Source: Muribaculaceae bacterium Isolate-104 (HZI) (lineage in GTDB: Bacteria > Bacteroidota > Bacteroidia > Bacteroidales > Muribaculaceae). From it: a stretch of DNA of 33,012 nucleotides. A program made the translations under genes and the position numbers. The first letter of the stretch is position 1. The number at the start of each line of letters is the position of its first letter. Shown here in pieces: positions 754-32,592 of this stretch. The notes below the pieces were generated by a model that was given only the letters and a program-made list of their open reading frames with translations, was not told the DNA's origin and made no database searches. The stretch spans positions 1 through 33,012 of the forward strand of contig RIBJ01000048.1 in assembly GCA_003762715.1 (NCBI GenBank). Direction: 5' to 3'.

Positions 754-760
754 AATATAT

Positions 761-797: not shown

Positions 798-805
798 TGT
801 ATTGT

Positions 806-1520: not shown

Positions 1521-1553
1521 ATCCGCAATTGCCGGATAACTGGGTGCTGACCA
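1511..1553 (+). repeat. Shufflon inverted repeat C, left copy
   Basis: These 43 bases are identical to the reverse complement of 2543-2585. The repeat encodes the entry to TRD2 (NPHYPQLPDNWVLT). It overlaps repeat B by ten bases. Inversion would swap the second TRD of the plus-strand silent copy with the minus-strand half-copy. Confidence 0.95.
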
Positions 1554-2045
1554 GAATCAAAGATGTATTTGAAATCAATCCGAAGAACAAGGCTTCGGAT
1601 AATATTCAAGCAGGCTTTGTTCCGATGGCGTCAATCCATGACGGCTACTCTAACAAATTTCATTATGATGTAAAACAGTGGGGTGAAATAAAATCAGGAT
1701 TCACACATTTTGCAGACGGAGATATTGCGGTAGCCAAAATATCACCATGTTTGGAGAATCGAAAATCTATGATTCTACGAGATCTCCCAAATGGGATTGG
1801 CGCAGGAACAACAGAACTGCTCATATTCAGAAGCACAATATTGATTCCTGAGTTCTCATTACTATTCTTCAAGTCAGATAACTTCATTAAATGTTGTACG
1901 GGAACTTTTAATGGAGTTGTTGGCCAACAAAGAGTTGGAAAATCAATCGTTGAGGATATACATATCCCGATACCACCATTGAACACACAGCGTGCTATTA
2001 TTGAACGTGTTCAAGGGTGGTTTAATTGTTTGGATAATATTATCG

Positions 2046-2585: not shown

Positions 2586-2587
2586 GC

Positions 2588-2634
2588 GTTATCTTATTAT
2601 CATGTTCAACTTAAATTGAATGTGATATGATAAC
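2588..2634 (+). promoter_or_regulatory. Hairpin/dyad enclosing the recombinase start codon
   Basis: A 12-bp stem pairs 2598-2609 with 2616-2627 (two G-T wobbles, loop CTTAAA). A further 6-bp stem pairs 2588-2593 (GTTATC) with 2629-2634 (GATAAC). The ATG of the recombinase at 2627-2629 lies inside the paired region. This could limit translation or be a recombinase binding site for autoregulation. The structure is seen; the role is inferred. Confidence 0.45.
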
Positions 2635-3430: not shown

Positions 3431-3445
3431 CCAACTCCCTTTCAC

Positions 3446-3489
3446 AAGCGTCTTTGCCCTCTTGACCATTCAAGATTGCAAAGACGCTT
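3446..3489. terminator. Bidirectional hairpin between recombinase and hsdS
   Basis: 3446-3457 (AAGCGTCTTTGC) pairs with 3478-3489, and inside it 3460-3465 (TCTTGA) pairs with 3470-3475 around the loop CCAT. The 18-bp stem has a single 2x2 internal mismatch. It covers the hsdS stop codon at 3470-3472 and the last codons of hsdS. It could end transcription of both convergent genes. Confidence 0.6.
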
Positions 3490-4864: not shown

Positions 4865-4869
4865 AATTG

Positions 4870-5694
4870 TCACTTATTACGATAAATCTCATCAAGGGTC
4901 TGTCCCTTATCGTTTTTCCATTCTACCCAGCCATTTGAGCTGCATCCTCCGCAAATGCTCGCAGCTGTACTTGGACTTGAAAATGAAATATCGGATGTCA
5001 AAACCGGGTTGCCATTTTCATTTGTCTGAGAGTAATCCTTGATAATCATTTCCCGTCTTTCGATGGTATGGCAAGAGTTTACAGTATCTTTGGATAATAT
5101 ACTCCCTCGCAATACAGTAAAGCCATTTCCATCATACACACCTTTTGCATTTGCGCCTCTACGCTTAAAATGGAAAACGGGTAGTTGATTAACCGAAGCT
5201 GTTTCAAAAATGCTTATCCCAATAAAAGATGTCAGGAATTTGATGTCCTCGAAGAACTCATCCATAGCATCTTTCTGATATTCCGGAAGGTTCGGTTCTT
5301 TCGGAGTCTGCTTGTTTTCCTGAAGACCATATCGGTTGATATTCTTTGCCTGTTGCACGGCAAGATATTCCAGATATTGCACATCTGTTTTGGTCATATC
5401 CGCATCTTTTGAAACGAATATAAGAGCTTTCTGCCAAAAGGTTTTCTTTTGGTCATGGTCTTTTACCCTCTCCCTGAAGTTTTCGGTTTCTCCAATATAA
5501 GCCTGCGGTTTTGCCATTTCATCTTCGCCAATAAGAATATAGAATGCCGGCTTGTGTAGTTTCTTCTGTTTGTCGAGATAGTCAAGATTTGAACGTGGCA
5601 CGACAAACATCTGGCATATCTTATTGCTGATAAAAGCATAGCGGGTTCCTTTGGGATCTCCGTCCACGAGGTATGTAGTTACTGTCTTACCCAT
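4870..5694 (-). CDS. GIY-YIG nuclease-fold protein with C-terminal DUF4357
   Basis: This is a 274-residue protein between hsdM and hsdS. A GIY-YIG core runs from about residue 50 to 120: FYILIGE, then AYIGETENFRERVKDH with the likely catalytic Arg, and DVQYLEYLAV with the metal-binding Glu. The C-terminal ~80 residues (from VLRGSILSK, ending CGGCSSNGWVEWKN) match my memory of DUF4357, which often follows GIY-YIG in proteins coded with Type I methylases. Spacing is 3 bases to hsdM and about 5 bases to hsdS, so it is in the operon. GIY-YIG enzymes cut DNA; its part in the restriction system is not established. It may add a nuclease step or limit self-damage. Key residues appear intact. Confidence 0.8.
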   Translation of the reverse strand: MGKTVTTYLVDGDPKGTRYAFISNKICQMFVVPRSNLDYLDKQKKLHKPAFYILIGEDEMAKPQAYIGETENFRERVKDHDQKKTFWQKALIFVSKDADMTKTDVQYLEYLAVQQAKNINRYGLQENKQTPKEPNLPEYQKDAMDEFFEDIKFLTSFIGISIFETASVNQLPVFHFKRRGANAKGVYDGNGFTVLRGSILSKDTVNSCHTIERREMIIKDYSQTNENGNPVLTSDISFSSPSTAASICGGCSSNGWVEWKNDKGQTLDEIYRNK

Positions 5695-5697
5695 GGC

Positions 5698-9869
<4,172 letters not shown>

Positions 9870-20282: not shown

Positions 20283-20621
20283 TCATTCTGCATTAAGAGA
20301 TTGGTCATCTTGCTCTTGCGCAGCCTTTCGGCGGGTATCTTTAGCTTTCTTCTTGGCGGCTCGTTTGGCAGCATCCTCTTGGAGCTGCTGTTTCAGTGAT
20401 TTCACAACCTCTGGCTGCTCACGCTTAAATCGTTTCAAATAGAGGTTCTCAATGTGTTGTGGCAACGGGGTTTTCCACGGCTCCTGCTTGTGGTTGTCAA
20501 TCTTCCGTAGAGAATCCGGTTTGAATCCAAGCTCACGAGCCATCTGCACCTGCACATCGGAAAGATGGTGGCGTTTCTGCGCCACCATCCATTCCTCTAT
20601 TATAGCACGTCTGGATGCCAT
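20283..20621 (-). CDS. Conserved protein of unknown function, basic C-terminus
   Basis: This 112-residue protein has a conserved N-terminal core: EEWMVAQKRHHLSDVQVQMARELG, FKPDSLRKIDNHKQEPWKTP and LPQHIENLYLKRFKREQP. This pattern recurs in many unrelated bacteria, as I recall, without an assigned function. The rest is a highly charged helix rich in Lys, Ala, Arg and Gln (LQEDAAKRAAKKKAKDTRRK), likely coiled coil or nucleic-acid binding. The ATG overlaps the HU stop by one base (TAATG), indicating co-translation with HU. Confidence 0.75.
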   Translation of the reverse strand: MASRRAIIEEWMVAQKRHHLSDVQVQMARELGFKPDSLRKIDNHKQEPWKTPLPQHIENLYLKRFKREQPEVVKSLKQQLQEDAAKRAAKKKAKDTRRKAAQEQDDQSLNAE

Positions 20622-20896
20622 TATTTTGCGACTTCTTCCTTGAAGGAATTGGCGGGTTTGAATGCCGGGATATTGTGCGCCGGGATTATGATTGTTGTGT
20701 TCTTACTGATGTTCCGGGCCGTTTTCTCTGCGCGGGTCTTGACGATGAATGAACCGAATCCACGGAGATATACGTTCTCGCCGTGAGCGAGGCTGTCTTT
20801 TACAACAGTCATAAACTGTTCGATTACAGAGATAACGGCAGTTTTCTCGATCCCTGTCGATTTTGATATTTCGTTTGCTATTTCTGCTTTTGTCAT
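20621..20896 (-). CDS. HU/IHF-family nucleoid protein
   Basis: This is a 91-residue HU-type protein starting at 20896 (MTKAEIANEISKSTGIEKTA). VYLRGFGSFIVKTRAEKTARNISKN matches the HU DNA-binding arm region, and IPAFKPANSFKEEV the C-terminal helix. It forms dimers that bend DNA. The longer frame upstream to 21028 has no HU character. It heads a three-gene unit with the conserved protein and the 49-residue acidic protein. In a mobile element it could support recombination or packing of incoming DNA. Confidence 0.93.
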   Translation of the reverse strand: MTKAEIANEISKSTGIEKTAVISVIEQFMTVVKDSLAHGENVYLRGFGSFIVKTRAEKTARNISKNTTIIIPAHNIPAFKPANSFKEEVAK

Positions 20897-20937
20897 ATTG
20901 CGAGGTGTTATGTTGAGGTTGATACGCTTTATAACTG

Positions 20938-20945
20938 CAAAATTA
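20938..20945 (-). promoter_or_regulatory. Probable -7 element for the HU unit
   Basis: The minus strand reads TAATTTTG, fitting TAnnTTTG, 41 bases upstream of the HU start. No clear -33 element is seen at the right distance. Confidence 0.4.
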
Positions 20946-20973
20946 CTAAAAATCGGGCGAATAAGCATAAGAA

Positions 20974-20996
20974 AGCCTGCCCAAAATGAGCAGGCT
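20974..20996 (-). terminator. Terminator of the radical SAM gene
   Basis: AGCCTGC (20974-20980) pairs with GCAGGCT (20990-20996); on the minus strand it is followed by TTCTTA. It lies 20 bases after the radical SAM stop at 21016 and upstream of the HU promoter. Confidence 0.65.
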
Positions 20997-21015
20997 GGAA
21001 ACAGGATTAGAGTCT

Positions 21016-21909
21016 TCACAGATGCCATATCCTGCTGCGATATGCTTTCAGTTCCTTTTCCGGAAACTGCGCTATCGCCTTATCAAATTCTCGGAGTATC
21101 GCGGCTTTGTCATCCGGTAATGCTCCCGTGATTGGTACCGTATTGGAGATATGGTGACCGAGCAGGTTGACACGTATATTCAGTTTGTCGATAAGTGTCC
21201 GCATCTCCATCAGTCGCTCTATCTCCGGTTCCTCTATATACGTGCCGTCTTGCACTTCCTGATATAACTGCGACTCCGGAAAGATTGTCAACGACACTAT
21301 GTTGATGATGCAGGGATGGAGTTGATTCAACACCTCGGCGGTCGCTATCGCGCTTGCCTCGCCATTGCCCTTGCCGCTGAGTCCGTTAAGATAGAATACA
21401 TTGTAGCGGATTCCTGCCTCGTCGAGTTTTGTGAGCTGTTCAAGAATGTCGGCGGCGTGATAGCCCTTGTTCATCCGCTCCAATGTCGGGTCATGGGCAG
21501 TCTCTATGCCAATATTGATGCTGTCGAGTTTCAAATGGTGGAGGTTCTTCAGTTCTTCAACTGTCTTGGACGTAATGTCCGTTACGCGGGCGAACATCCC
21601 GAACGACACCATGTGCGGAAGATACTTCCTTAACAGCAAAGCAACATCCATGAGTTTGTTGTAACTCAACGCGAAAGGGTTCGCTCCGGTGAGATAGACA
21701 CGTCGTGCGCGTGGTTGCCACTGCCGGATGACTATAAGGTCTTCCTCCACCTCTGAAAGAGGCGACATTCGGAAGGGTGTACCGTGGTATAGACTGCAAA
21801 ACTTGCATTTGTGCCATGTGCAGCCGGAGGTCAGTTGCAGCAGCTGGGAACTGGCTTCGTATGGAGGTCGCCACACCTGACCTGTGAAATGTAGCTCAGG
21901 ATATATCAT
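21016..21909 (-). CDS. Radical SAM protein
   Basis: This ~297-residue protein uses the start at 21909 (MIYPELHFTGQVWRPPYEA). The cluster motif CTWHKCKFC (Cys-x4-Cys-x2-Cys) near residue 30 binds the 4Fe-4S cluster that cleaves S-adenosylmethionine. The usual later radical SAM landmarks are visible: VYLTGANPFAL, LDSINIGIETAHD and YNVFYLNGLSGKGNG. The cluster spacing is Cys-x4-Cys rather than the common Cys-x3-Cys. It resembles the broad group of Elp3/HemN-like radical SAM proteins of unknown substrate. It is divergently transcribed from hxlR, with a good promoter at 21940-21970. Confidence 0.85.
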   Translation of the reverse strand: MIYPELHFTGQVWRPPYEASSQLLQLTSGCTWHKCKFCSLYHGTPFRMSPLSEVEEDLIVIRQWQPRARRVYLTGANPFALSYNKLMDVALLLRKYLPHMVSFGMFARVTDITSKTVEELKNLHHLKLDSINIGIETAHDPTLERMNKGYHAADILEQLTKLDEAGIRYNVFYLNGLSGKGNGEASAIATAEVLNQLHPCIINIVSLTIFPESQLYQEVQDGTYIEEPEIERLMEMRTLIDKLNIRVNLLGHHISNTVPITGALPDDKAAILREFDKAIAQFPEKELKAYRSRIWHL

Positions 21910-21939
21910 ATCTCGATATTTTTTGTTAATTTTGTAATG

Positions 21940-21970
21940 CAAAATTAGGTGATAGTCAGAGCCAAAGCAA
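21940..21970 (-). promoter_or_regulatory. Promoter of the radical SAM gene
   Basis: On the minus strand TTG (21968-21970), 20 bases, then TAATTTTG (21940-21947) matches the Bacteroidetes promoter. It is 31 bases from the chosen start at 21909, which supports that start over the one at 21942, whose codon overlaps the -7 element. Confidence 0.6.
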
Positions 21971-21974
21971 CAAC

Positions 21975-22008
21975 TTACCGAAAGGTTTGACCCTTACCTA
22001 AAAGTTTG
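21975..22008. promoter_or_regulatory. Pair of 15-bp direct repeats, candidate HxlR operator
   Basis: TTACCGAAAGGTTTG (21975-21989) and TTACCTAAAAGTTTG (21994-22008) agree at 13 of 15 positions with a 19-base period. They lie between the divergent radical SAM and hxlR genes, directly beside the -33 element of the former. Control of both genes by HxlR is an inference. Confidence 0.45.
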
Positions 22009-22044
22009 TTTTACTCGTTATCAGCCTGTTTTGCATGACAGTAT

Positions 22045-22395
22045 ATGGCAAAAAAACTGGATTACGAATATTGCAAGGCCGCCCCGATGCTCGAATGGCT
22101 CGGCAACAAGTGGGCGCTGGTCGTTCTCGTGAAGATTTCCGAGAACGAGCCGGTGCGCTTCAACGAGTTGTACCGCAATATCCCGTCTGTGTCTGAAAAG
22201 GTACTGTCGCAGGTTCTCCGTCAGTTGACGACCGACGGCATAATCCGCCGCGAACTGTTCCCGGATGTGCCGCCTCGCACGGAATATTCCGTCACTGACT
22301 TCGGCAGAACACTTTTGCCCCACGTCGAAGCCCTCATCAACTGGGGCCGCGACAACTTCGACACCATAATGTCAAACCGCCAAAAACAGAAATGA
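22045..22395 (+). CDS. HxlR-family transcriptional regulator
   Basis: This is a 116-residue winged-helix protein with the HxlR pattern: CKAAPMLEWLGNKWALVVLVKI, RFNELYRNIPSVSEKVLSQVLRQL, TDGIIRRELFPDVPPRTEYSVT and a final helix LLPHVEALINWG. Cys10 near the N-terminus is at the place used for redox or electrophile sensing in HypR/YodB-type members. It heads the plus-strand run, 3 bases before the DJ-1/PfpI gene, which is a frequent redox-linked partner. A pair of direct repeats at 21975-22008 may be its operator. Confidence 0.92.
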   Translation: MAKKLDYEYCKAAPMLEWLGNKWALVVLVKISENEPVRFNELYRNIPSVSEKVLSQVLRQLTTDGIIRRELFPDVPPRTEYSVTDFGRTLLPHVEALINWGRDNFDTIMSNRQKQK

Positions 22396-22398
22396 ACT

Positions 22399-23004
22399 AT
22401 GAGCAACGAAATTCTTTATATTCTGCTACCCGACTTCGCGGCGCATGAGGTAGTGTATCTCGCGCAGGCAATCGCCTCCGATGAGTATGCGCTGAAAGAA
22501 TATCCCAAATATGTCAACAAGATTGTAGCGCCGACACTGGATCCGATTAAATCTATCGGCGGTTTCCGAACATTGCCGGACTATGCGTTTGACACGATGC
22601 CCGACGATTATGCTGCGCTGGTGCTGATTGGTGGCTTCGGCTGGAGCACGCCCGTCGCTGACAAAGTCGTGCCGATAGTCCGAAAAGCCATTGAAGAAGG
22701 CAAAACAGTCGGTGCTATCTGTAACGCAGCTTCGTGGATGGCGAAACATGGTTTTCTCAATGCCGTGAAACATACCGGCAACGGATTGGAACAACTTAAA
22801 ATTTGGGGTGGTGAGATCTATACGAATCCCGAAGGGTACATCCACACGCAAGCCGTAAGCGACAACCGCATTGTGACTGCAAACGGTTCGGCTACGCTTG
22901 AATTTGCAAAGGAGTTGCTTCTGTTGCTTGAAAACGACACGCAAGAGCGTATAGAAATGTACTATCAATTCAACAAGCAGGGCTTCTGCTCTTTATTTCA
23001 ATAG
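22399..23004 (+). CDS. DJ-1/PfpI family protein
   Basis: This is a 201-residue protein of the DJ-1/PfpI superfamily. ILYILLPDFAAHEVVYLAQAI is the first strand-helix with a likely conserved acidic residue. The nucleophile elbow is VGAICNAASWMA with the reactive Cys near residue 112. VLIGGFGW is the strand-loop before it. Members act on glyoxals, as chaperones or on glutathione-linked stress products. It begins 3 bases after hxlR and one base before the DUF169 gene. The redox-type regulator upstream fits a stress role. Confidence 0.88.
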   Translation: MSNEILYILLPDFAAHEVVYLAQAIASDEYALKEYPKYVNKIVAPTLDPIKSIGGFRTLPDYAFDTMPDDYAALVLIGGFGWSTPVADKVVPIVRKAIEEGKTVGAICNAASWMAKHGFLNAVKHTGNGLEQLKIWGGEIYTNPEGYIHTQAVSDNRIVTANGSATLEFAKELLLLLENDTQERIEMYYQFNKQGFCSLFQ

Positions 23005-23005
23005 G

Positions 23006-23731
23006 ATGTCTCTTATGATGAACCCGTCAGAATTCATAGCAGAATATCGGGAGTGTTTCGGAGCATCTGTGCCGTTGACTCTCGCTGTGGTATATGCCGA
23101 TAAGCCTCTCAGTGAGCCTTGGAATATCGCGGGCTGTATGTTCAAGCAATTTCATAGGGCATATAAAGGGGAAACAGTAACTTTCGACGCCGAGAGTCTC
23201 ACATGCGGAGGCGGCAAGCTGTACACAGGTCTCGGGCCGGTACAGGAGCGTATATATGACTTCGTCTCAAAAGTGGAAAAATACAAACAGTCGCCGGAAC
23301 TGGTTCGAGGTTATATAACGGCACTGAACCCACGTCTGTCCGAAAAGCCATATCTGAATATCGTGCCGGTCGGCAATCTTGACAATTTCGATGAAATAGA
23401 GGGTCTGATATTCTTTGTGACGCCCGACGTGCTTTCCGGTCTTTTCGCTTGGGCCAACTATGACAGCTCGGATCTTAATGCCGTGATGTCTCCGTGGGGT
23501 TCAGGCTGTGCGTCGGCAATAACGACGATGGTCAACGAAAACCGCGCAGGCGGCAAACATTGTTTTATCGGTATGCTTGATGTCTCAGCACGTCAATTCT
23601 TCCACCATGACATTCTCAGTTTCTCAATTCCCAGGAGCCGATTCGTGGAGATGTGCGACACGATGCGGCAATGCTGCATCTCCGGCAGCCCCGCATGGCT
23701 CAAAGTGAAGAAAAGAATAAACAACACATAG
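23006..23731 (+). CDS. DUF169 family protein
   Basis: This 241-residue protein matches DUF169: an N-terminal FIAEYRECFG, a central Cys-containing stretch (GCMFKQFHRA, LTCGGGKLYTGLG) and a C-terminal WGSGCASAITTMVNEN followed by FIGMLDVSARQFFHHDILSFSIP. These conserved cysteines and the repeated glycine motifs are the family hallmarks. The function is unknown. It starts one base after the DJ-1 gene's stop (with another Met at codon 4) and is followed after 2 bases by the TIGR04076 gene. Confidence 0.85.
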   Translation: MSLMMNPSEFIAEYRECFGASVPLTLAVVYADKPLSEPWNIAGCMFKQFHRAYKGETVTFDAESLTCGGGKLYTGLGPVQERIYDFVSKVEKYKQSPELVRGYITALNPRLSEKPYLNIVPVGNLDNFDEIEGLIFFVTPDVLSGLFAWANYDSSDLNAVMSPWGSGCASAITTMVNENRAGGKHCFIGMLDVSARQFFHHDILSFSIPRSRFVEMCDTMRQCCISGSPAWLKVKKRINNT

Positions 23732-23733
23732 GT

Positions 23734-24126
23734 ATGAAACATAAAGTGAAAATCACTGTGCTTGACACCAAGCTCTATCCCGAATATCAGCAGCAATACT
23801 GCGTGAATCCTTGCTCCGGCAAATGCCCTGTCTACAACAAGGGCGATGAGTTCATGTTCTATCGTGATGACGTCCGGGATGACTTCTGGCACTGTGGACT
23901 CGACACGCTCGTGAAAACCGACGGCAATCCTGATGAGGTGGCAGGTGGTCCGAAAAAGCCATTCTGCTCCGAGGCGTGGGATGCTATCTCCAGATACATC
24001 TACGCCGGATTGCAGGGCGGCTCCATCATGAAGGGTTGGATGCGCGATGAAAACACCATGATCACATGCTGCAACGACGGGACGCGCCCTGTAATCTTCA
24101 AAATTGAGCGCATCGACTATGAATGA
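23734..24126 (+). CDS. TIGR04076 family protein
   Basis: This 130-residue protein uses the ATG at 23734, 2 bases after the DUF169 stop; the longer frame from 23653 overlaps DUF169 and adds unrelated residues. The sequence starts HKVKITVLDTKLYPE, carries the Cys set CVNPCSGKCPVYNKGDEF and FWHCGLDTLV, and ends DGTRPVIFKIERI. This matches the TIGR04076 family, which has no proven function; the cysteine pattern suggests metal or thiol chemistry. It is followed 3 bases later by an acetyltransferase gene. Confidence 0.85.
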   Translation: MKHKVKITVLDTKLYPEYQQQYCVNPCSGKCPVYNKGDEFMFYRDDVRDDFWHCGLDTLVKTDGNPDEVAGGPKKPFCSEAWDAISRYIYAGLQGGSIMKGWMRDENTMITCCNDGTRPVIFKIERIDYE

Positions 24127-24129
24127 AGC

Positions 24130-24705
24130 ATGATAGAAACTGACAGACTTATCCTGCGACCTTGGCGAGAGGACGATGCCGAGGCTCTTTATAAGTACGC
24201 TTCTGACCCTGCAATCGGTTTGGTTGCAGGTTGGCCGCCGCATACTTCCGTGGAAAACAGCCTTGAAATTATCCGGACTGTGTTTTCCGCGCCGGAAACT
24301 TATGCCGTTGTATTGAAAGAGACTGATGAGCCTGTGGGTTGTTGTGGTATAATGTTCTCCAACAGTTTACATGCCGCTGAAATGCAAACAAATGAGGCAG
24401 AGATTGGCTATTGGATTGGCAAGCCATATTGGGGACAAGGATTGATACCGGAAGGGGTAAAAGCCTTGTTGTCAAGATGCTTCAATGACCTTGAACTCGG
24501 TGCCGTATGGTGCGGATATTATGACGGAAACGACAAATCAAGACGTGTCTGCGAGAAATGCGGATTCAAGTATCACCATACTAATCCCGATATTGTCTCG
24601 CCTCTTGGGGACAGGCGTACCGAACAATTTTATCTAATGACAAAAGAAGATTATCATGCCATACATATCAATAGAGAGCGACAGGCTGACCGCAGAACAG
24701 AATAA
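24130..24705 (+). CDS. GNAT family N-acetyltransferase (RimJ/RimL-like)
   Basis: This is a 191-residue acetyltransferase. ETDRLILRPWREDDAEALYKYASDP at the N-terminus, IGYWIGKPYWGQGLIPEGVKALLSRCF (acetyl-CoA binding loop GKPYWGQGL) and NDKSRRVCEKCGFKYHHTN at the C-terminus are the standard motifs of the Acetyltransf_3 group. It would acetylate an amine on a protein or small molecule; the substrate is unknown. It begins 3 bases after the TIGR04076 gene. Its last 50 bases overlap a truncated tautomerase frame (24656-24730). Confidence 0.9.
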   Translation: MIETDRLILRPWREDDAEALYKYASDPAIGLVAGWPPHTSVENSLEIIRTVFSAPETYAVVLKETDEPVGCCGIMFSNSLHAAEMQTNEAEIGYWIGKPYWGQGLIPEGVKALLSRCFNDLELGAVWCGYYDGNDKSRRVCEKCGFKYHHTNPDIVSPLGDRRTEQFYLMTKEDYHAIHINRERQADRRTE

Positions 24706-24730
24706 GCAGCAGATTCGGATGCCATGGTAA
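24656..24730 (+). pseudogene. N-terminal remnant of a 4-oxalocrotonate tautomerase-like gene
   Basis: A 24-codon frame starts MPYISIESDRLTAEQ and ends after QQIRMPW with TAA at 24728-24730. The beginning matches the N-terminus of 4-oxalocrotonate tautomerase-like enzymes (Pro after the initial Met is the catalytic base; the SIES-x-LT-x-EQ pattern is typical). Full members have about 60-75 residues, so the gene is cut short. The frame overlaps the end of the acetyltransferase gene. It may be a relic of a further gene lost from this run by deletion. Confidence 0.5.
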
Positions 24731-24751
24731 GAAATCTTAAATAGATTATCA

Positions 24752-25534
24752 ATGAGAATCTATCAACCGAAGGAGAAACTGCGCCCGTATGTGCGCTACT
24801 ATTGGGTGCTGGAAAGCGATGCGCCTTTCAGCGTCCTGACATATCCTATCGGTTGCCCGCAGATGATTTTTCATCGGCGCACGCCTCTATTCATCCCCGA
24901 ATTATCATGTCGGCAGGATAAATTCACTATCAGCGGGCAGGTGAATTTCCCGGCTAATATTACCTCTTACGGCGACACGGAAATGGTTGTCGCGGTTTTC
25001 TATCCCCATACCATCGGGATGTTCATTGACACTCCACCGTCGGCTTTCTACAATCAGGAGATTTCCGGCTACACTATAGGGAACAAGCAGTTGAATCGGC
25101 TTGCCGACCAGATTTTTGATTGTGCGGATTCCAAAACGGCAATATCGCTGATAGAACAGTGGCTAACCGCACGAATCATCCCATCGTTGAACATTGAAAG
25201 AATCGGGGCTTCGCTCTCCGCGTTGCTCCGTTCGCCGTCAACTTCGGTTGAGAACCTCGCCGGAATCGCCTGTCTGAGCAAGAAACAATACGGTCGCCTG
25301 TTCCGCGAATATGTCGGCATGAATCCTAAGGAATACGGACGCATAGCCCGGTTCCAGCGGGCTTTGAGGATGATGCAGCTCGGTTCTCGCGATTATGCCG
25401 GAATTGCATACGCCAACGGGTACTCCGACCAGTCGCATTTCATCCGCGACTTCCGCCTTTTTAGCGGCATTACACCCAAGCAACTGGCTGAATACCAGAT
25501 ACCATACTCCGATTTATATACCGTTCCGGTATAA
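24752..25534 (+). CDS. AraC-family transcriptional regulator (DUF6597-type N-terminus)
   Basis: This is a 260-residue regulator. The N-terminal domain begins YQPKEKLRPYVRYYWVLESD, the pattern of the DUF6597 sensor domain. The C-terminal AraC domain contains two helix-turn-helix parts: TSVENLAGIACLSKKQYGRLFREYVGM and DYAGIAYANGYSDQSHFIRDFRLFSGITPKQ. It lies 46 bases after the acetyltransferase gene and 57 bases before the CAT-like gene, which it may regulate. The dyad at 25578-25600 lies just in front of that gene. Confidence 0.92.
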   Translation: MRIYQPKEKLRPYVRYYWVLESDAPFSVLTYPIGCPQMIFHRRTPLFIPELSCRQDKFTISGQVNFPANITSYGDTEMVVAVFYPHTIGMFIDTPPSAFYNQEISGYTIGNKQLNRLADQIFDCADSKTAISLIEQWLTARIIPSLNIERIGASLSALLRSPSTSVENLAGIACLSKKQYGRLFREYVGMNPKEYGRIARFQRALRMMQLGSRDYAGIAYANGYSDQSHFIRDFRLFSGITPKQLAEYQIPYSDLYTVPV

Positions 25535-25572
25535 ATGTCCCTTTTCTTCTATCCGGGCTGAAAGCGAAGTGA

Positions 25573-25600
25573 TAATTTTGCATCAAAAAAGATGATGCAA
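25573..25600 (+). promoter_or_regulatory. -7-like element and perfect dyad over the CAT-like start codon
   Basis: TAATTTTG (25573-25580) fits the -7 consensus. TTGCATCA (25578-25585) and TGATGCAA (25593-25600) form a perfect 8-bp inverted repeat with a 7-base spacer, covering the ATG at 25592. No good -33 element is seen. It may be an operator or an RNA hairpin hiding the start. Confidence 0.4.
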
Positions 25601-26209
25601 GAAGTCAATCCCGTGGAAACAACCCGTGCTTACGCCTTCGAAAAGTGGATGAAGGCCCCGATGCCGATGGTAACGCTGTTCAAGACGCTCGATGTGACCC
25701 GGCTGCGCCGTATCAGCCGCCGTCGCAGACTGAAATTCAATATGCTGATGTGTTGGTGTATAGGCCGGGCCGCATCGCAGGTCAAGGAGTTCTACCTGCT
25801 CCCTGTCGGCAGCAAACTGATGCGCTATGACTCGATAGCCGTCAACACTATCGTGCTCAATCGAAAAGGCGAGGTCAGTTCATGCGACATTCCCTATACC
25901 GACGACCTCGCCGTTTTCAACGTCGACTATCTGCGCCTGACCAATAAGGTGGCTGAGACCTGCGAAAACAATGACATCGCTGACAGCATGGTTATCGGCA
26001 CGTCGGCATTGGCGCAATACGATATTGATGGGGCTGTCGGAATGTATAGCGGAGTATTCAACAATCCTTTCCTGATATGGGGACACTACCGCAATGGCTT
26101 CTTCAAAACTCGGCTGACTGTATCATTACAATTCCATCACACCCAGATGGATGGCGCCCATGCCGCCGGTTTTATCGGTAAGTTACAGGATGTAATCAAT
26201 TCCATATAA
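25592..26209 (+). CDS. Chloramphenicol acetyltransferase-like acyltransferase
   Basis: This is a 205-residue protein with the CAT fold. The catalytic motif QFHHTQMDGAHAAGFI near residues 185-200 supplies His-x3-Asp-Gly, with the His acting as general base. Upstream patterns also fit: RRLKFNMLMCWCIGRAAS, LPVGSKLMRYDSIAVNTIVL and NNPFLIWGHY. True CAT enzymes are trimers that acetylate chloramphenicol; many homologues in Bacteroidetes have unknown substrates, and the sequence does not let me decide. It is the last gene of the plus-strand run, ending before a clear terminator. An alternative ATG lies at the next codon. Confidence 0.85.
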   Translation: MMQEVNPVETTRAYAFEKWMKAPMPMVTLFKTLDVTRLRRISRRRRLKFNMLMCWCIGRAASQVKEFYLLPVGSKLMRYDSIAVNTIVLNRKGEVSSCDIPYTDDLAVFNVDYLRLTNKVAETCENNDIADSMVIGTSALAQYDIDGAVGMYSGVFNNPFLIWGHYRNGFFKTRLTVSLQFHHTQMDGAHAAGFIGKLQDVINSI

Positions 26210-26226
26210 CTGAAGAATTCTCCAAC

Positions 26227-26242
26227 GCCGCCTTTTGGCGGC
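26227..26242 (+). terminator. Terminator of the plus-strand hxlR-CAT run
   Basis: GCCGCC (26227-26232) and GGCGGC (26237-26242) pair around TTTT, followed by CGAAATTTTT. It lies 17 bases after the CAT-like stop. Confidence 0.8.
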
Positions 26243-26260
26243 CGAAATTTTTGACAAAAT

Positions 26261-26295
26261 GAACGGAGCGACTTCATCACGAGGTCGCTCCGTTC
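26261..26295 (-). terminator. Terminator of the pcfJ operon
   Basis: GAACGGAGCGAC (26261-26272) pairs with 26284-26295 in a 12-bp stem. On the minus strand it is followed by ATTTTGTC and further T-rich bases. It lies 17 bases after the pcfJ stop and stands back to back with the plus-strand terminator. Confidence 0.75.
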
Positions 26296-26312
26296 TGACT
26301 ATGACAAACATA

Positions 26313-27587
26313 TTATGCTGTTATTCTTTCTTTGATGAGGTGGGCATTGGCGTTGATGAGGTTGATGATGCGGTCGTGGTAGGCGGTGTTCTTGTTGCAG
26401 ACGCCTCTTGACTGAACCACTCTGAGGGTGCGGAGGTCGACTTCGATGGTCTCGATTATCCTGCCGTCTATCCTCGCCGAGAAGATAAGGCTGTCCTCAC
26501 GCTGGTCGTAGGCTGCGCTGAACAGGCAGATGTGCTGACTTTCGGCTTCCTGCCGGTATTCCTCAACGCTCTCCAATACCTTGACCTCAATCTCTCCGTC
26601 ATTGATGCGGATGCCGAAGAATTTCTCTTTCTGCTCCTTAAAATTCGCCTCACGTTCCTGAGCCTTGCGGATGTCCTCAGCTCTCTTGGCTTTGGCTTCT
26701 ATCTCACGTGCTTTCTTGACGTAATGGTCGTGAGCCTCTTTGAGATTGGTGGGGCAGATATATCTTGGGGATTGGATGTCCTTGCCACAACGCTCCAACA
26801 TCTTGATGTAGTCCATCCACATCTGCGAGTCCTTGACCTCGTAGCCGTTGCGGTTGGCTACCTTGATGGTGTTCCAATAGGTGTCGATGTCCACCTTGTA
26901 GGTTGGTCTTGCACATAGGTATCGGAGCAATTCTATCTCGTTGGCTTTCATCAGCGTCTCTGCCTTGGGGTTGGTCAGCAACTCTTGGAACATCGTCACG
27001 GGGTGGATATGGTGGCAACTCCCTTTGAAGCCGTTGCGTTTTATGGTGTCAGTGACATTGATGCGCGGATAGACCCATTCATCTGATATGCGCTGGAAAG
27101 CCTCATTGTCATGCCTTATCTCCAACGGAGAACCGAAGGCGAAACAGTCTATGTAGTGTCCCAATGTCCTCTGCAAACCTACTACGGTAGTCTTGCCATT
27201 GCTGTCAATCCAATAACTGCCGATTTCAAGATAGGCGGGATTAGCCTTCATTCCCTTGCGCATTTCCACTATCATCAGGAACATTCTCACTACCTGATAG
27301 TCCTCAATGGTGGTGATAACGTTGAAATAGGACTTGTCACGGATAACACGCTCTTTGGTGTCCTTGATTTCAATCCGAGTGCCACATTCGGGGCATAGGC
27401 AAATTCCGTTCCTTGTCTCCAGCCACTCGTGACCGCATTTCATACAGGTACACATTCCGGATTTGAGCCTGTAGCCGTAATGGTTGATGGTTGAATTGAG
27501 TGCCCAATTCATTTGGGGAGTGGTGAGCGGGCGAAGTCGCCCGTTCAGTTCCACTATATGTTTTTCTTTGAGATTGCGAGGTTTCAT
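26313..27587 (-). CDS. PcfJ-family conjugative-element protein
   Basis: This 424-residue protein resembles PcfJ-like proteins of Bacteroidetes conjugative elements (named after pCF10). The N-terminal third has a zinc ribbon: CTCMKCGHEW and, after about 15 residues, CLCPECGTRIE. A middle conserved part (YFNVITTIEDYQVVRMFLMI, YWIDSNGKTTVVGLQRTL) precedes a long helical, Lys/Glu-rich stretch at about 295-330 (REIEAKAKRAEDIRKAQ), and a conserved C-terminus follows. The function is unknown, but the gene is almost always next to pcfK. Here pcfK lies 12 bases upstream. It is evidence for an ICE backbone to the right of the cargo. Confidence 0.88.
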   Translation of the reverse strand: MKPRNLKEKHIVELNGRLRPLTTPQMNWALNSTINHYGYRLKSGMCTCMKCGHEWLETRNGICLCPECGTRIEIKDTKERVIRDKSYFNVITTIEDYQVVRMFLMIVEMRKGMKANPAYLEIGSYWIDSNGKTTVVGLQRTLGHYIDCFAFGSPLEIRHDNEAFQRISDEWVYPRINVTDTIKRNGFKGSCHHIHPVTMFQELLTNPKAETLMKANEIELLRYLCARPTYKVDIDTYWNTIKVANRNGYEVKDSQMWMDYIKMLERCGKDIQSPRYICPTNLKEAHDHYVKKAREIEAKAKRAEDIRKAQEREANFKEQKEKFFGIRINDGEIEVKVLESVEEYRQEAESQHICLFSAAYDQREDSLIFSARIDGRIIETIEVDLRTLRVVQSRGVCNKNTAYHDRIINLINANAHLIKERITA

Positions 27588-27599
27588 CTTCTTGGAGTT

Positions 27600-28046
27600 T
27601 TAGAGGTCGAAAAGACTGGGTTGAACATTGATTTCCTCTCCGGCTTTGGGAGCGGTGGCGGTCGCTTTGGGTTGAGCCTTCGGTGCTGACTGACGTCTGA
27701 TTTCTCGGAGTTGTTCCTCTCGGTATTGCTCCATAGCCTGCTCCTTGAGTTGAGCCTTGTCTTCCTCGGTAAGTTGGTCTTTGGAGATTACTACCTTGCA
27801 GTTGATGGGTTTGCCGATTTCCTCTGCGCTGACATCGCCGTCAAAGTAATGACAGGCAAGCGAATACACCTCATCGTTGGTCAGAACCGACACGCCTTGA
27901 TGCTTGACTTCGTTGAGTATATACTGACAGCACTCGGCTACGGATTTAGACGGCGAGGCATAGCGGATAGCGAAAAGGGTGTCGCTCGCTGCACGGCTGT
28001 CAAGATACTGACGGATAGTCTCGATAAAATTTTCAGATGATTTCAT
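27600..28046 (-). CDS. PcfK-family protein with C-terminal clamp-binding-like motif
   Basis: This 148-residue protein fits the PcfK-like family: FIETIRQYLDSRAASDTLFAIRYASPSKSVAECCQYILN spread over residues 7-45, then LTNDEVYSLACHYFDGD. A charged helix and an Ala/Pro/Lys linker (SAPKAQPKATATAPK) lead to the last residues QPSLFDL. Such a disordered linker followed by Q-x-x-L-F is the form of a bacterial sliding-clamp binding peptide. The role of the family in conjugation is not known. It lies in one operon with the upstream membrane protein and downstream pcfJ. Confidence 0.88.
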   Translation of the reverse strand: MKSSENFIETIRQYLDSRAASDTLFAIRYASPSKSVAECCQYILNEVKHQGVSVLTNDEVYSLACHYFDGDVSAEEIGKPINCKVVISKDQLTEEDKAQLKEQAMEQYREEQLREIRRQSAPKAQPKATATAPKAGEEINVQPSLFDL

Positions 28047-28058
28047 AGTCGTATGTCT

Positions 28059-28271
28059 TTAGAGTGTCATTATCCAATAGATTATCACAAGTGCGCTGAT
28101 GATTGATATTACCCAGCCGATACCTCGGAATATCGGTCGGAGGAAAGCCCACAAGGTCAGACCTATTATTGCTCCGAATATCCCTGCCAACCAAAGGATT
28201 GTTCTTTTTATTTGGTTGAACCTGAGGCTTGAAGCTTTGCCTTGACTATTTATGTGGCTGTTCGTTTTCAT
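28059..28271 (-). CDS. Small membrane protein of the pcfK operon
   Basis: This 70-residue protein has two hydrophobic segments, about residues 26-44 (LWLAGIFGAIIGLTLWAFL) and 50-69 (GIGWVISIISALVIIYWIMT), after a polar N-terminus (MKTNSHINSQGKASSLRFNQ). I know no family name. It lies 12 bases upstream of pcfK on the same strand and would be the first gene of the operon. Its position in ICEs of this group suggests an accessory envelope role, without direct evidence. Confidence 0.7.
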   Translation of the reverse strand: MKTNSHINSQGKASSLRFNQIKRTILWLAGIFGAIIGLTLWAFLRPIFRGIGWVISIISALVIIYWIMTL

Positions 28272-28332
28272 CGTTGCGACGTTTTTTTATTTGTATATCA
28301 CCATCGGTTTTGCTTGCTTGACACCCAAAGGG

Positions 28333-28446
28333 CGTGTGGCGGGAGAGAGGGGGATGTTCGGCCTTGGGATTAAAAATACTACCGACCGCAGGGAGCTGTG
28401 GAGATTTTTCATTCCAAAGCCAAAAGAATATCCCTTTCGCCACACG
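28333..28446. repeat. 9-bp inverted repeat CGTGTGGCG 100 bases apart
   Basis: CGTGTGGCG at 28333-28341 has its exact reverse complement CGCCACACG at 28438-28446. The region between contains a purine-rich stretch. It could bring two sites together in RNA or DNA; one 9-bp match in this length may also be chance. Confidence 0.35.
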
Positions 28447-28643
28447 TTAAGCAATGGCAAGCAAGTGAAATCGCTGGCTGATTGGACAATGAACAGGAGC
28501 CACGACTCCGGGACGGTGAATTGAAAATCGCCGCTCAAATAATAGGCAATAGCGGCAAAACGGACAGTCGCATAATCAACTATGAAAATAAATTCCCCAC
28601 TGACTGATAGTAAAATGGTACCGGGCGACACGACCAGCGTAGT

Positions 28644-28956
28644 CTGTGGTTGTCAGACAACGCAGGAAGGATGACGGCCACAGTCTATGCCGAGTGGCGT
28701 AGTTCCCGGACGGCAAGTGGTTGAGCGGACGGTAAAAATCCTTATCAGGCAACGGCGATAAAGAACACGGAGGAACGGCAATAAGTCTCAGAGGTGAGGC
28801 AGCGTCCCCGATGCAGACCTCGGAGGCGTTGCCGGTTATCGGTGTCCCGCCGTTGCCATTAGGCGCGAGGCGGTCGCAAGGTGTCAGTGGCTCGTCCACC
28901 GTCACGTTGCGGCGGCATCACGCCGCAAACACGGCAGTCCGCTCAACCTCTTGTCG
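28644..28956. ncRNA. Candidate structured RNA or cruciform DNA locus (strand unknown)
   Basis: Nested pairings are visible. An outer stem joins 28711-28730 to 28937-28956 (20 pairs with one T-T mismatch and one G-T; the core GGTTGAGCGGAC is exact). Inside it, GGCAACGGCG (28748-28757) pairs with 28848-28857, CGGCAA (28776-28781) with 28829-28834, and GAGGT (28791-28795) with 28817-28821. A separate hairpin joins TTGCGGCG (28907-28914) to 28921-28928 around GCATCA. In front, CTGTGG (28644-28649) pairs with 28678-28683 and contains TTGT-CAG-ACAA. This amount of compatible pairing points to a large structured RNA or a protein-bound DNA structure. No reverse transcriptase or intron protein lies beside it. 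I cannot match it to a known class. Confidence 0.5.
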
Positions 28957-29021
28957 GCCACCTTGACGGATTGTCTAAACTTTTTATGCTCTTGTATGGT
29001 TTACAAATGAGAAATATTTTG

Positions 29022-29051: not shown

Positions 29052-30110
29052 ATGACTAAAGACTCAAACAACATATTCGGGCGTCGGCTAAATCAAGCCC
29101 GCCTTATCAAAGGGCTTACGATGGATGAACTTGGGAAAGAAGTTCAGCCCGCCGTGACCCGTCAGGCCATAAACAAGTACGAGAAGGGACTGACCATGCC
29201 AGACAGCCGGATGCTGATAGCCTTCAGTATGGCGTTGGGAGTGAAACCGGATTATTTCTTCCGTCCGTTTACCGTCGCCGTTGACAAGATAATGTTCAAC
29301 AAGAAGACCGGAGTATCGGAACGTGCAGTCTCATCAATACGCGAAAAAGTCAGGGAGGAATTGGAAAGATACCTCGAAATCGAGGAATTATGCGGAATCA
29401 GAACTGATTACACCCTTGAAAAAAGAGATGTGGAGAATGCTGACGATGTGAGGAGATATGCCGGTGAGGTGCGATCTATGCTCGGACTCGGGCATGACGG
29501 CATTTCAAACGTGATAGAGGTATTTGAAGATAACGGCATAAAGATTATCGAGATCTCCGAAAACAAGTCATTCGGAGGTCTCAGCGGCTATGCCAACGAC
29601 AATATACCTGTAATTGTCGTAAACAGGAATCTGCCTTCGGAGGAGAAGCGTTTTACGCTGCTCCACGAACTCGGACATCTTATTATCGGGCTTCCCGCAG
29701 GATACGATGTAAAAGAGATTGAACGTCTGTGCAATGTGTTTGCCTCGGAAATGCTGGTGCCGTCATCGGTGCTGAAAGGACGCCTCGGCAATACTCGCCA
29801 TGACATCTCATTGGCTGAATTATGCGATATTCAGAAACAGTATGGTGCTTCGATAGATACCATCATGTTGTCGCTGAAAGAACTCGGAGTGATAACCGGA
29901 AGAAGATATGAGGGATACCTTAAAAAGAAAAAGCTCTTCCCGGATTTCAACGCGATAGTCGAGAAATCGCTTTTTATCTCGGAGACGTCAGGCCGATTTG
30001 TGAGGATGGTATATCGCGCGGTTGCCGATGAGATTATCTCGCTGTCGAAGGCGGCATCGCTTCTCAACACCTCTGTTGACAGAGTGAGATCACAACTCCA
30101 GCTTGTATAA
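29052..30110 (+). CDS. XRE helix-turn-helix protein with ImmA/IrrE peptidase domain
   Basis: This 352-residue protein starts with an XRE DNA-binding domain (FGRRLNQARLIKGLTMDELGKE, AVTRQAINKYEKGLTMPDSR). An ImmA/IrrE zinc-peptidase domain follows, with HELGH at 205-209 (FTLLHELGHLI) and a likely third ligand Glu in the CNVFASEMLVP helix. This XRE-COG2856 arrangement is known as an antitoxin-like partner of PIN and other toxins, where the peptidase part responds to stress. The next gene starts 3 bases later and encodes a PIN protein, which supports such a pair. A C-terminal region of about 70 residues (ETSGRFVRMVYRAVADEIISL) may bind the partner. Confidence 0.9.
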   Translation: MTKDSNNIFGRRLNQARLIKGLTMDELGKEVQPAVTRQAINKYEKGLTMPDSRMLIAFSMALGVKPDYFFRPFTVAVDKIMFNKKTGVSERAVSSIREKVREELERYLEIEELCGIRTDYTLEKRDVENADDVRRYAGEVRSMLGLGHDGISNVIEVFEDNGIKIIEISENKSFGGLSGYANDNIPVIVVNRNLPSEEKRFTLLHELGHLIIGLPAGYDVKEIERLCNVFASEMLVPSSVLKGRLGNTRHDISLAELCDIQKQYGASIDTIMLSLKELGVITGRRYEGYLKKKKLFPDFNAIVEKSLFISETSGRFVRMVYRAVADEIISLSKAASLLNTSVDRVRSQLQLV

Positions 30111-30113
30111 ACG

Positions 30114-30620
30114 ATGAAGATATTAGTCAACGATACAAATATCTTCATTGACCTCCATTCGGTAGGTCTATTGGAAGAAATGTGCAGGCTGCCATACGAA
30201 ATTCACACTGTGGATTTAGTGGTGGCGGAAATTGCAGATGCCGACCAGCGAAGAATTTTTGATGAACTTGTTGCCCGAGGGGAAATATCCGTCGATGGAT
30301 TCACTGCTGATGAAGTGATTGAAATTGTTGAGGAACACTCGTCAGTTTCCGGCAATCTCTCCATACCCGATTGCTCGGTATGCTATTTCGCAAGAAAGCA
30401 TAACGTACCAATGTTGACGGGCGACCGACGGCTTAGACGCTATGCAGAAGAACAGTCAATCGAGGTGCATGGCATCCTCTTCATATTCGATGAGTTGGTC
30501 AGGCATGACATCATATCGACATCAATGGCGGCAGACCGACTTGAAGAATTATTCGCCATCAACGCCCGACTACCGAAGGCTGAAATCCGGGATCGTATCA
30601 ACCGTTGGAGAAACAATTGA
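30114..30620 (+). CDS. PIN-domain protein, probable toxin of the pair
   Basis: This 168-residue protein has the acidic PIN active site: Asp7 (VNDTNIF), Glu39 (VVAEI), Asp86 (SIPDCSVCYFARKH) and Asp104 (LTGDRRLRRYAE). PIN toxins are ribonucleases cutting tRNA, rRNA or mRNA; the target here is unknown. It is coded 3 bases after the XRE-ImmA protein, in the usual antitoxin-first order. The last 40 residues (ADRLEELFAINARLPKAEI, then RINRWRNN) are basic and helical, likely an added region for RNA or partner contact. Confidence 0.87.
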   Translation: MKILVNDTNIFIDLHSVGLLEEMCRLPYEIHTVDLVVAEIADADQRRIFDELVARGEISVDGFTADEVIEIVEEHSSVSGNLSIPDCSVCYFARKHNVPMLTGDRRLRRYAEEQSIEVHGILFIFDELVRHDIISTSMAADRLEELFAINARLPKAEIRDRINRWRNN

Positions 30621-30811: not shown

Positions 30812-32326
30812 ATGGCGACTATTCAAGAATTGCTGGCTGATTCGCTGGAGGTGCTTCGGCAGCTTCAGGATAAAGAACCAAATTTAATCCTGCGCGGTAC
30901 GGAGGCCATTTCGCGTACCCATCTGAACCGTCTGTTGGCAAACGGATGGCTTCAGGAAGTGATGAAGGGATGGTATATTCCTTCACGACCGGGAAGCGAG
31001 GGCGACACCACCGTGTGGTACACGTCATATTGGCATTTTGTGCGTGCCTACGCCGATTCACGTTTCGGCTCTGACTGGAGTCTGTCTGCCGATTCTTCAC
31101 TTGATTTCCATTCCGGCAAGACCACTGTTCCGGGCCAGTTGATTCTTAAATCTCCAAAAGCAAGCAATAACATAGTCAGTCTTCCATACGGCCACACCCT
31201 GCTTCCGCTTAAATCGGAACTTACACAAAATATTGTCGTAGACCCCATATATGGGTTGCGTCTCTATAGCCTTGAATCCGCATTAGTATACGCTTCCCCA
31301 TCATATTATTCCAATGACCCCATGTCTGCACGGATATGCCTGTCGATGATCGACAACGCAAGCGAATTGTTGAAGATTCTGACTGATAAAGGAGCCACGA
31401 CAAGAGCCGGACGCATTATCGGTGCGCTTCGGAGTGTCGGCAAAGGGGCTATTGCAGATGAGATACTGTTGACGATGAGAGATTTTGGATATGCTGTCTC
31501 TGAGTACAACCCATTTTCTGCCGAGACAGACACGACAGCCATATATGCCAAATCGCCATACGCGGCACGTATAAGAATGATGTGGGCGACAATGAGGGAA
31601 CAGGTATTGGAAAATTTTCCGCAAACTCCTGAAGCGGTCGCCGACATAGAATCGTATCTCGAACATGTGGATGAAAAATATCTTGAAGACGCCTATCACT
31701 CTCTTTCCATAGAGGGCTATCAGGTATCGAGAGAACTTATCGAAAAGGTTAGATCGGGCAATTGGAAACCGGACAGTGACGACAAGGAACAAAAGAGCGC
31801 ACTTGTGGCGCGTGGCTATTATCAGGCATTTCAGTCGGTAAAGGAGTCGGTCAGAAAGATACTTGCGGGACAAAATGCGGGCGGCGTTTTGGAAGAAGAT
31901 CATTCCCGATGGTATCGCCAGATGTGGATGCCGTTTGTCACCGCCGGTATTCTTACAGCGTCAGACCTCATCGGGTATCGCACAAATCAGGTCTATATTC
32001 GAGGTTCACAGCACATTCCTCTTAATCCCCGCGCTGTGTCGGACGCCATGCCGGAATTGTTCCGACTGATAAGTGAGGAGCCTGATCCGAGAGTAAGAGC
32101 CGTGCTGGGGCATTTTATGTTTGTATTCATACATCCCTACATGGATGGGAACGGACGTATGGGACGCTTTATCCTTAACGCCATGCTTGCCTCGGGGGGC
32201 TATCCATGGACTGTTGTACCGTTAGAGAAACGTCGGGAATATATGTCCGCTCTTGAAAATGCAAGCGTCCGGGGCGACATATCGGATTTCACCAGACTGA
32301 TTTCCGGTCTCGTTGCGAGGCCATAA
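30812..32326 (+). CDS. Fic-domain protein with AbiEi-like winged-helix N-terminus
   Basis: This is a 504-residue protein. Residues of about 10-60 (LRGTEAISRTHLNRLLANGWLQEV, MKGWYIPS) look like the winged-helix antitoxin domain of AbiEi/type IV antitoxins, and the following ~150 residues (DFHSGKTTVPGQL, LYSLESALVYASP) continue that fold. The Fic domain occupies about 290-504: the inhibitory motif SLSIEG at 297-302 (S-x-x-x-E-G) lies N-terminal to the catalytic motif HPYMDGNGRMGR at 441-452, which is complete. Fic enzymes transfer AMP or similar groups to proteins. Here DNA-binding control, self-inhibition and toxin are in one chain. It has its own promoter and three phased repeats upstream. 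The target is not predictable. Confidence 0.9.
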   Translation: MATIQELLADSLEVLRQLQDKEPNLILRGTEAISRTHLNRLLANGWLQEVMKGWYIPSRPGSEGDTTVWYTSYWHFVRAYADSRFGSDWSLSADSSLDFHSGKTTVPGQLILKSPKASNNIVSLPYGHTLLPLKSELTQNIVVDPIYGLRLYSLESALVYASPSYYSNDPMSARICLSMIDNASELLKILTDKGATTRAGRIIGALRSVGKGAIADEILLTMRDFGYAVSEYNPFSAETDTTAIYAKSPYAARIRMMWATMREQVLENFPQTPEAVADIESYLEHVDEKYLEDAYHSLSIEGYQVSRELIEKVRSGNWKPDSDDKEQKSALVARGYYQAFQSVKESVRKILAGQNAGGVLEEDHSRWYRQMWMPFVTAGILTASDLIGYRTNQVYIRGSQHIPLNPRAVSDAMPELFRLISEEPDPRVRAVLGHFMFVFIHPYMDGNGRMGRFILNAMLASGGYPWTVVPLEKRREYMSALENASVRGDISDFTRLISGLVARP

Positions 32327-32372
32327 TATTTTAACAACCGGTCATAAAATTTTCTAAAATGAACCCTCGGAC

Positions 32373-32403
32373 TTGAATATCAGTGGAAAAAGCATTAACT
32401 TTG
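32373..32403 (+). promoter_or_regulatory. Promoter of the small-RNA unit
   Basis: TTG (32373-32375), 20 bases, then TAACTTTG (32396-32403) matches the Bacteroidetes consensus. No credible protein gene follows before the terminator at 32593-32626. Confidence 0.65.
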
Positions 32404-32525
32404 CAATACCCTTAGAATCCCTTTGGGTCACGTGGCGAGCGGCTGCGTGAGGATATAGAAATTTAGGTTGCAAATTCGCTACACACGAATGTTAACCAAT
32501 TGCAACTCGTTGATATGTGTACATT

Positions 32526-32557
32526 TGGAGCGTAAGGTTCAAGTTCCTCCAGCTCCA
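32526..32557 (+). other. tRNA/tmRNA 3'-end-like sequence, candidate attachment site
   Basis: TTCAAGT (32538-32544) has the form of a T-loop, and CAGCTCCA (32550-32557) is like the acceptor end of tmRNA or a tRNA. The T-stem is poorly paired (TAAGG with TCCTC) and no 5' half is present upstream, so it is not a working tRNA. This is what is expected for the attachment core of an element that integrates into the 3' end of such a gene. It is not proven. Confidence 0.4.
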
Positions 32558-32592
32558 CTATGTACTACCGAACTTTTTCGGACAAAACGAGT

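Follow-up and report, generated by a model that had tools for sequence, protein, structure and literature searches.

A two-domain folded element beside a divergent TM-pcfK-pcfJ operon in integrative islands of gut Bacteroidales

What is the folded stretch of DNA that separates a pcfK-pcfJ operon from a set of toxin-antitoxin genes in this Muribaculaceae contig? We refer to the whole 33,012-nt stretch analyzed as the window. A sequence-only reading of the window had marked positions 28644-28956 as a structured element within an integrative and conjugative element, and had proposed that it was either an undescribed structured RNA or a DNA structure used in replication or transfer. Computational analysis revealed a conserved folded structure with a preferred strand, a near-fixed operon arrangement, a cargo bias and an island end at ssrA. 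In many gut bacteria, the RNA is arranged divergently to the same three poorly understood protein genes, and it therefore probably works with those proteins in mobile DNA. The best explanation, to which we assign a probability of about 0.55, is that a two-domain Bacteroidales RNA and the operon proteins act together as a ribonucleoprotein in the service of an integrative island.

Extent, fold and strand of the element

The 20-bp outer stem and the exact 10-bp inner stem described in the sequence-only reading are both present. The outer-stem arms (28708-28730 and 28937-28959) are 23 nt long and 87% complementary, and they enclose 206 nt. The inner stem pairs 28748-28757 with 28848-28857, and both stems appear in the minimum-energy fold of 28620-28990. 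That fold has an energy of -183.3 kcal/mol on the plus strand, compared to -136.3 ± 5.6 kcal/mol for 100 shuffled sequences (z = -8.4); the z-score for the minus strand is -5.1. The region originally marked is therefore real and folded, but its coordinates are too short. Full-length homologues detected by blastn with 28300-28990 start near 28300 and end near 28956-28990, indicating that the element is about 650 nt long (about 28300-28965, plus strand) and that the first region corresponds to its 3′ half. The whole element (28296-28968) folds at -297.9 kcal/mol, compared to -228.1 ± 6.1 kcal/mol for 20 shuffles (z = -11.5).

The element consists of two domains, both on the plus strand. In the alignment of copies, the 5′ domain (28300-28520) forms a single long composite hairpin with 53 pairs, whose internal-loop sequences, AAAAAUAC ... 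CUGGAGAUUUUU, are invariant. Its core (28311-28477) was used as search model R1. The 3′ domain (28705-28962; model R2) has 78 pairs, with a 19-20 bp outer stem that closes two long arms. Between the domains is a variable middle (28521-28704), which contains no gene in the window copy. Here, the minimum-energy and centroid folds both place a hairpin at 28621-28709, immediately before the stem that closes the 3′ domain. The window contains no tRNA or tmRNA gene, and neither a terminator nor a consensus promoter was established for the RNA.

We aligned 15 full-length copies with MAFFT, including the copy from the window, and left out the near-duplicates L038 and L040 to give 13 counted sequences. 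In the 5′ domain, 96.8% of 686 cells are paired and 16 of 53 pairs show changes on both sides. The corresponding values for the 3′ domain are 95.7% of 1002 cells and 30 of 78 pairs. In 500 shuffles the observed numbers were never reached, though shuffling does not preserve relatedness. Sliding by 1-3 columns left only 1-4 such pairs in the 5′ domain and 1-9 in the 3′ domain, a control that somewhat favors the structure because the structure was drawn from the same alignments. Thus, homologues do show the covariation on which the sequence-only reading had staked its proposal. G-U cells outnumber A-C cells by 130 to 23 among the 1688 cells, which identifies the plus strand as the folding strand. 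This asymmetry fits an RNA, although a folded single strand of DNA would produce it too. We consider a genuine folded element on the plus strand to be virtually certain, and we hold with good confidence that it functions as RNA rather than as folded DNA.

Conservation of a protein in one reading frame had been named as the observation that would speak against a structured element, and neither tested frame of the window shows it. The longest frames over the element encode 109 residues on the minus strand (28576-28905) and 51 residues on the plus strand. The minus frame is interrupted by stops and frameshifts in all 12 other distinct copies. The plus frame contains stops in nine of the 12, and in the other three (L036, L045 and L046) it is partly out of frame. 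Substitutions hit all codon positions equally in the minus frame, and the plus frame lacks a consistent third-position bias. In every one of the 15 aligned copies, the minus strand has the longest stop-free stretch (79-177 codons), with no single conserved frame.

The divergent operon and its islands

Three genes are encoded on the minus strand, divergent from the RNA. The first (28059-28271; TM) encodes a 70-residue protein with a polar, basic N-terminus, a conserved RPxxRGxGWxIS motif and two hydrophobic segments, which we read by eye from the sequence. This protein matches no Pfam or NCBIfam family and is probably a two-helix membrane protein. Its start codon and the start of the RNA are no more than about 40 nt apart. 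The second gene (27600-28046) matches Pfam PcfK (E = 1.5e-35) and the third (26313-27587) matches Pfam PcfJ (E = 3.2e-38). PcfJ has a CxxC...CxxC zinc ribbon at its N-terminus and a C-terminal PcfJ domain with a weak match to a GNAT-like fold. DNA homology between copies extends from just beyond the end of pcfJ (about 26223) to the 3′ end of the RNA, and its left limit (26223-26312) contains a GCCGCC..GGCGGC inverted repeat downstream of pcfJ.

We also made two observations on pcfK itself. The protein ends in a conserved QPSLFDL tail (27600-27620), which is partly kept in PcfK relatives without the RNA and which we take to resemble a sliding-clamp (beta-clamp) binding motif. Further, pcfK is broken at about codon 47-50 in six loci from three genomes (L141, L142, L143, L144, L151 and L062), and thus looks like a preferred insertion site. 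The L143 insert carries three tyrosine-recombinase-like genes in a row, presumably of the recombinase-in-trio type.

The association between RNA and operon extends well beyond the window. Matches to 28300-28990 were found by blastn in at least 49 of 297 genomes from the same family. In a set of 99 same-family genomes, model R1 detected the RNA in 17 and PcfJ was found in 21; 15 genomes had both, two had the RNA alone and six had PcfJ alone (Fisher p = 3e-11, uncorrected for relatedness). The 51 R1 rows included 13 opposite-strand shadows of the same places, leaving 38 RNA places. pcfJ is within 8 kb of 27 of these and is divergent and upstream in every case, with a gap of 1487-1529 nt in 21 of the 27. 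Ten of the remaining 11 places retain TM or pcfK, complete or partial, and the other begins at a contig end. The TM gene is divergent from the RNA at most loci. Viewed from the protein side, R1 gives no hit within 8 kb of 25 of the 52 PcfJ matches. Some of these 25 belong to a distant clade in which the DNA ahead of pcfK is structured and matches R1 weakly or not at all; others lack such structure. A search of genome contigs, in genomes that overlap with the set of 99, identified the 5′ domain at 25 of 31 PcfJ loci of this clade. At the six loci that lack it, the match is preceded by no more than 628 nt, and elsewhere the 5′ domain is about 720-960 nt away. Cultured carriers include Heminiphilus faecis AM35 and Paramuribaculum intestinale DSM 100749.

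Across the order, R1 matched at least nine of 393 genomes in a Bacteroidales sample, two of them from the window's own family. Three of the seven out-of-family matches adjoin pcfK (G559, G460 and G679); in all, diverged copies stand next to pcfK in three further Bacteroidales families. The match in G363 is of similar strength to these three and its contig is cut, and those in G601, G385 and G643 look like chance. Separately, L169 and L081 belong to a different pcfJ clade and neither matches R1. DNA upstream of pcfK in L169 folds with z-scores down to -6.6 (10 shuffles per stretch), and this clade possibly has a second RNA that is unrelated or very diverged. We also noted that 7203 bp of the window (21816-29018) are 99.99% identical to L204, from a record named Palleniella muris NM73_A23, which could reflect recent transfer, a mislabelled bin or a very near genome.

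The other side of the element is occupied by cargo on the plus strand. The window encodes an HTH protein with an M78 peptidase domain (29052-30110; ImmA-like, RmrA in PADLOC), a PIN-domain protein (30114-30620) and a Fic-domain protein (30812-32326). The proposed position between pcfK/pcfJ and a toxin-antitoxin pair is therefore borne out, with PcfJ and PcfK confirmed by Pfam. The genes behind the RNA vary between loci. The 84 non-redundant downstream proteins from 31 loci include matches to RloB (5), AbiEii (3) and AlbA-type proteins (4). These proteins matched 142 PADLOC families, compared to 67 for 72 upstream proteins, a comparison that counts families rather than proteins, such that a single protein may match many. 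Some defence genes are found in the upstream flanks as well.

The cargo is followed by a right end of about 230 bp that is common to several islands (32330-32561, plus strand) and ends in a copy of the 3′ end of ssrA (tmRNA), CCTCCAGCTCCAC from position 32546. This copy is found downstream on the RNA strand at seven more loci (L036, L038, L040, L043, L056, L060 and L063) and is absent from most other loci examined; L056 has an additional copy on the other strand of its upstream flank. In G092, intact ssrA lies some 11 kb from the RNA on its upstream side; in the window's own genome it is on a different contig. The shared stretch with its ssrA end, of the kind that integrative islands have, suggests that these are likely tandem integrative islands at ssrA. 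The original assignment to an integrative and conjugative element is not supported: no relaxase or type IV secretion protein appeared among the 17 window proteins with Pfam tables, and we therefore use the term integrative island.

Two further features of the window were observed. An HU-like gene lies on the pcfJ strand near the pcfJ end, within 20283-21028 and about 5 kb from pcfJ in the window, and also at L042, L044, L047, L072, L073, L145, L146, L149 and L175, at times together with the small protein encoded at 20283-20621. This gene is possibly part of the island backbone. Positions 641-9869 contain type I restriction genes of the HsdM and HsdR types (Pfam). A tyrosine recombinase there (2627-3430) is surrounded by specificity-like frames on the two strands, and this region looks like a phase-variable hsdS shuffling locus.

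A proposed ribonucleoprotein and its alternatives

In the explanation we favor, an RNA of about 650 nt would be transcribed from the plus strand, divergent from TM-pcfK-pcfJ, and would bind PcfJ and PcfK to form a ribonucleoprotein. We think it probable that the RNA is a physical partner of the operon proteins. The particle would then serve the integrative island, close to its toxin-antitoxin and defence cargo. The small protein with two hydrophobic segments might tether the particle to the membrane, as OapA does for OLE RNA, though we put forward a membrane-tethered particle only tentatively. The role of the particle is the least secure part of this explanation. Our first guess would be protection or upkeep of the island, because the PcfK family includes the anti-CRISPR protein AcrIIA9.

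Some loci fit poorly with this model. In 25 of 33 copies, 83-275 nt separate the 5′-domain match from the 3′-domain match. The other eight have 380-4356 nt here, and each carries a gene or operon between the domains. In seven of the eight, the frame is on the plus strand, which is the RNA strand. The slot contains a GNAT gene in L044, L068 and L142 (Pfam) and in L047, where the protein start is the same as in L044. L045 has a small hydrophobic protein without a Pfam family, and in L060 the slot is filled by an operon that encodes HlyD and outer-membrane efflux proteins. L071 has an HNH protein, an assignment that rests on a weak 3′-domain match (the 3′ matches of L071, L145, L146 and L149 score 19.5-26.6 bits). 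L050 has a 153-residue frame without a Pfam family behind a fragmentary 5′ domain, whose end was placed by blastn in the absence of an R1 match. In addition, 3′ domains occur without a 5′ domain or operon in the examined flank at G159:C45 (two), G265:C2 (two), G265:C65, G078:C15 and G159:C88. The pairs in G159:C45 and G265:C2 are direct repeats around a LysR-like gene, and G195:C12 has a second 3′ domain behind an efflux-like cluster, both gene types having been named by sequence reading. Domains separated by 380-4356 nt of intervening genes are difficult to reconcile with a single rigid particle, and the orphan 3′ domains also count against one.

We considered the possibility that the element acts as folded single-stranded DNA on the plus strand, either as a recombination or gene-cassette site (in principle like integron attC) or as an island origin or transfer site. 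Folding of the DNA strand would yield the same covariation and G-U bias, the island is integrative and genes do lie between the two domains. Copies of the 3′ domain with a shared orientation flank gene clusters (G159:C45, G195:C12 and G265:C2), cargo begins shortly behind the 3′ stem, and the last ~25 nt are duplicated ahead of further cargo in two loci (L036/L192 and L050/L065). However, none of eight genomes has an integron integrase above the TIGR02249 cut-off (best score 107.5 bits, compared to 265). A second 3′ tail was found downstream in only three of 33 rows, in one of which the entire 3′ domain is duplicated, and homologous recombination between copies explains these cases. Moreover, the 3′ domain is 258 nt long with many covarying internal pairs, and known cassette sites generally need far less. 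We therefore regard a DNA site as unlikely.

The element could also be a structured untranslated region, acting as a leader or interdomain control of the cargo, or as an antisense or leader control of TM-pcfK-pcfJ. The window cargo and the slot genes of seven copies share the RNA strand, and the RNA starts very close to the TM start codon. Against this, the cargo changes between loci and the RNA remains, no Rfam cis-regulatory family matches above cut-off, and ~650 nt is large for a leader. Moreover, sequence reading of the window places between RNA and cargo a stretch that looks like a canonical Bacteroidetes promoter. Control of neighboring genes thus appears quite improbable as the main role.

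The gene slot and the orphan 3′ domains raise a further possibility, in which the two domains bracket captured genes. The 5′ domain, tied to TM-pcfK-pcfJ, would mark the start and 3′ domains would mark cassette ends. GNAT, efflux, HNH and toxin-antitoxin genes would pile up between and behind the domains, with PcfJ and PcfK as part of the machinery. This idea is a long shot. If true, gut Bacteroidales would possess a cassette system whose basis is a large folded RNA or the corresponding DNA strand. Finally, a non-autonomous, MITE-like mobile repeat that is rich in inverted repeats by chance and has no function of its own could account for several copies per genome (eight places in G092 with R1) and for orphan 3′ domains, but it is very improbable, because the near-fixed site by one operon, the compensatory changes in both domains and the persistence across families require selection.

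Comparison with known systems

Rfam includes OLE, ROOL, GOLLD, group I and II introns, and HEARO. No Rfam 15 family matches the element at gathering scores, and a search at E ≤ 10 returned only two chance-level matches, mir-3165 (21.5 bits) and the serC leader (12.6 bits), neither of which comes near its cut-off. Together with the covariation, the G-U excess and the conservation alongside a protein operon, this result supports the proposal of an undescribed structured RNA. Neither Rfam 15 nor our search of open-access papers yielded a description of the element. In the open literature, we found nothing that joins PcfJ to integrative DNA of Bacteroides and no structured RNA of Muribaculaceae. 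PcfK-like and PcfJ proteins are listed among genes common to several gut genera in the accessible portion of PMC10782964, and the main text of PMC8040213, in the portion available, names neither.

Large ornate RNAs form a small group, mostly without an established function. This RNA is accompanied by three linked proteins in a nearly fixed set, among them a member of the PcfK/AcrIIA9 family and the widespread, unexplained PcfJ. Its neighbors in gut Bacteroidales include defence and toxin-antitoxin genes. Together, these features make the roles of PcfJ, PcfK and a large RNA testable jointly.

Group II introns house a gene within a loop of their folded RNA, and genes may likewise sit between the two domains of this element. 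In contrast to those introns, the element has no Rfam intron match, and its slot is mostly empty or else holds GNAT, efflux or HNH genes. The sequence-only reading had also remarked that retron or group II intron neighbors were missing, and the six proteins around the element are indeed PcfJ, PcfK, TM, HTH-M78, PIN and Fic. At other loci, one of the 72 upstream proteins matches a PADLOC reverse-transcriptase model.

The OLE RNA of Firmicutes, with OapA, OapB and OapC, is an ornate RNA of about 600 nt with a linked membrane-protein gene and forms a large ribonucleoprotein, according to PMC12265935 (length from PMC9723947). Our element is similar in size and ornate fold, and its putative membrane protein and proposed ribonucleoprotein would extend the resemblance. 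The former source also states that membrane localization of OLE requires the linked protein OapA. However, our element has no covariance match to OLE, is found in Bacteroidales, is borne on an island and has a divergent operon with PcfK and PcfJ. Its 70-residue TM protein has two hydrophobic segments and is not OapA, which has four transmembrane helices in the same partial source. ROOL and GOLLD are likewise large ornate RNAs of unknown function on mobile DNA, as described in the available part of PMC12286853. In contrast, the element has no covariance match to either and the window has no tRNA, and its linked protein operon sets it apart from ROOL, which, according to that text, lacks any known partner protein. 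The middle operon protein belongs to Pfam PcfK, a domain present in AcrIIA9 according to PMC6739104, whose accessible part describes no structured RNA for that protein. Membership in the PcfK family does not by itself show anti-CRISPR activity. Thus, the general kind, a large ornate RNA of mobile DNA, is known, whereas, within the reach of our searches, the fold, the set of proteins and the gene slot are new.
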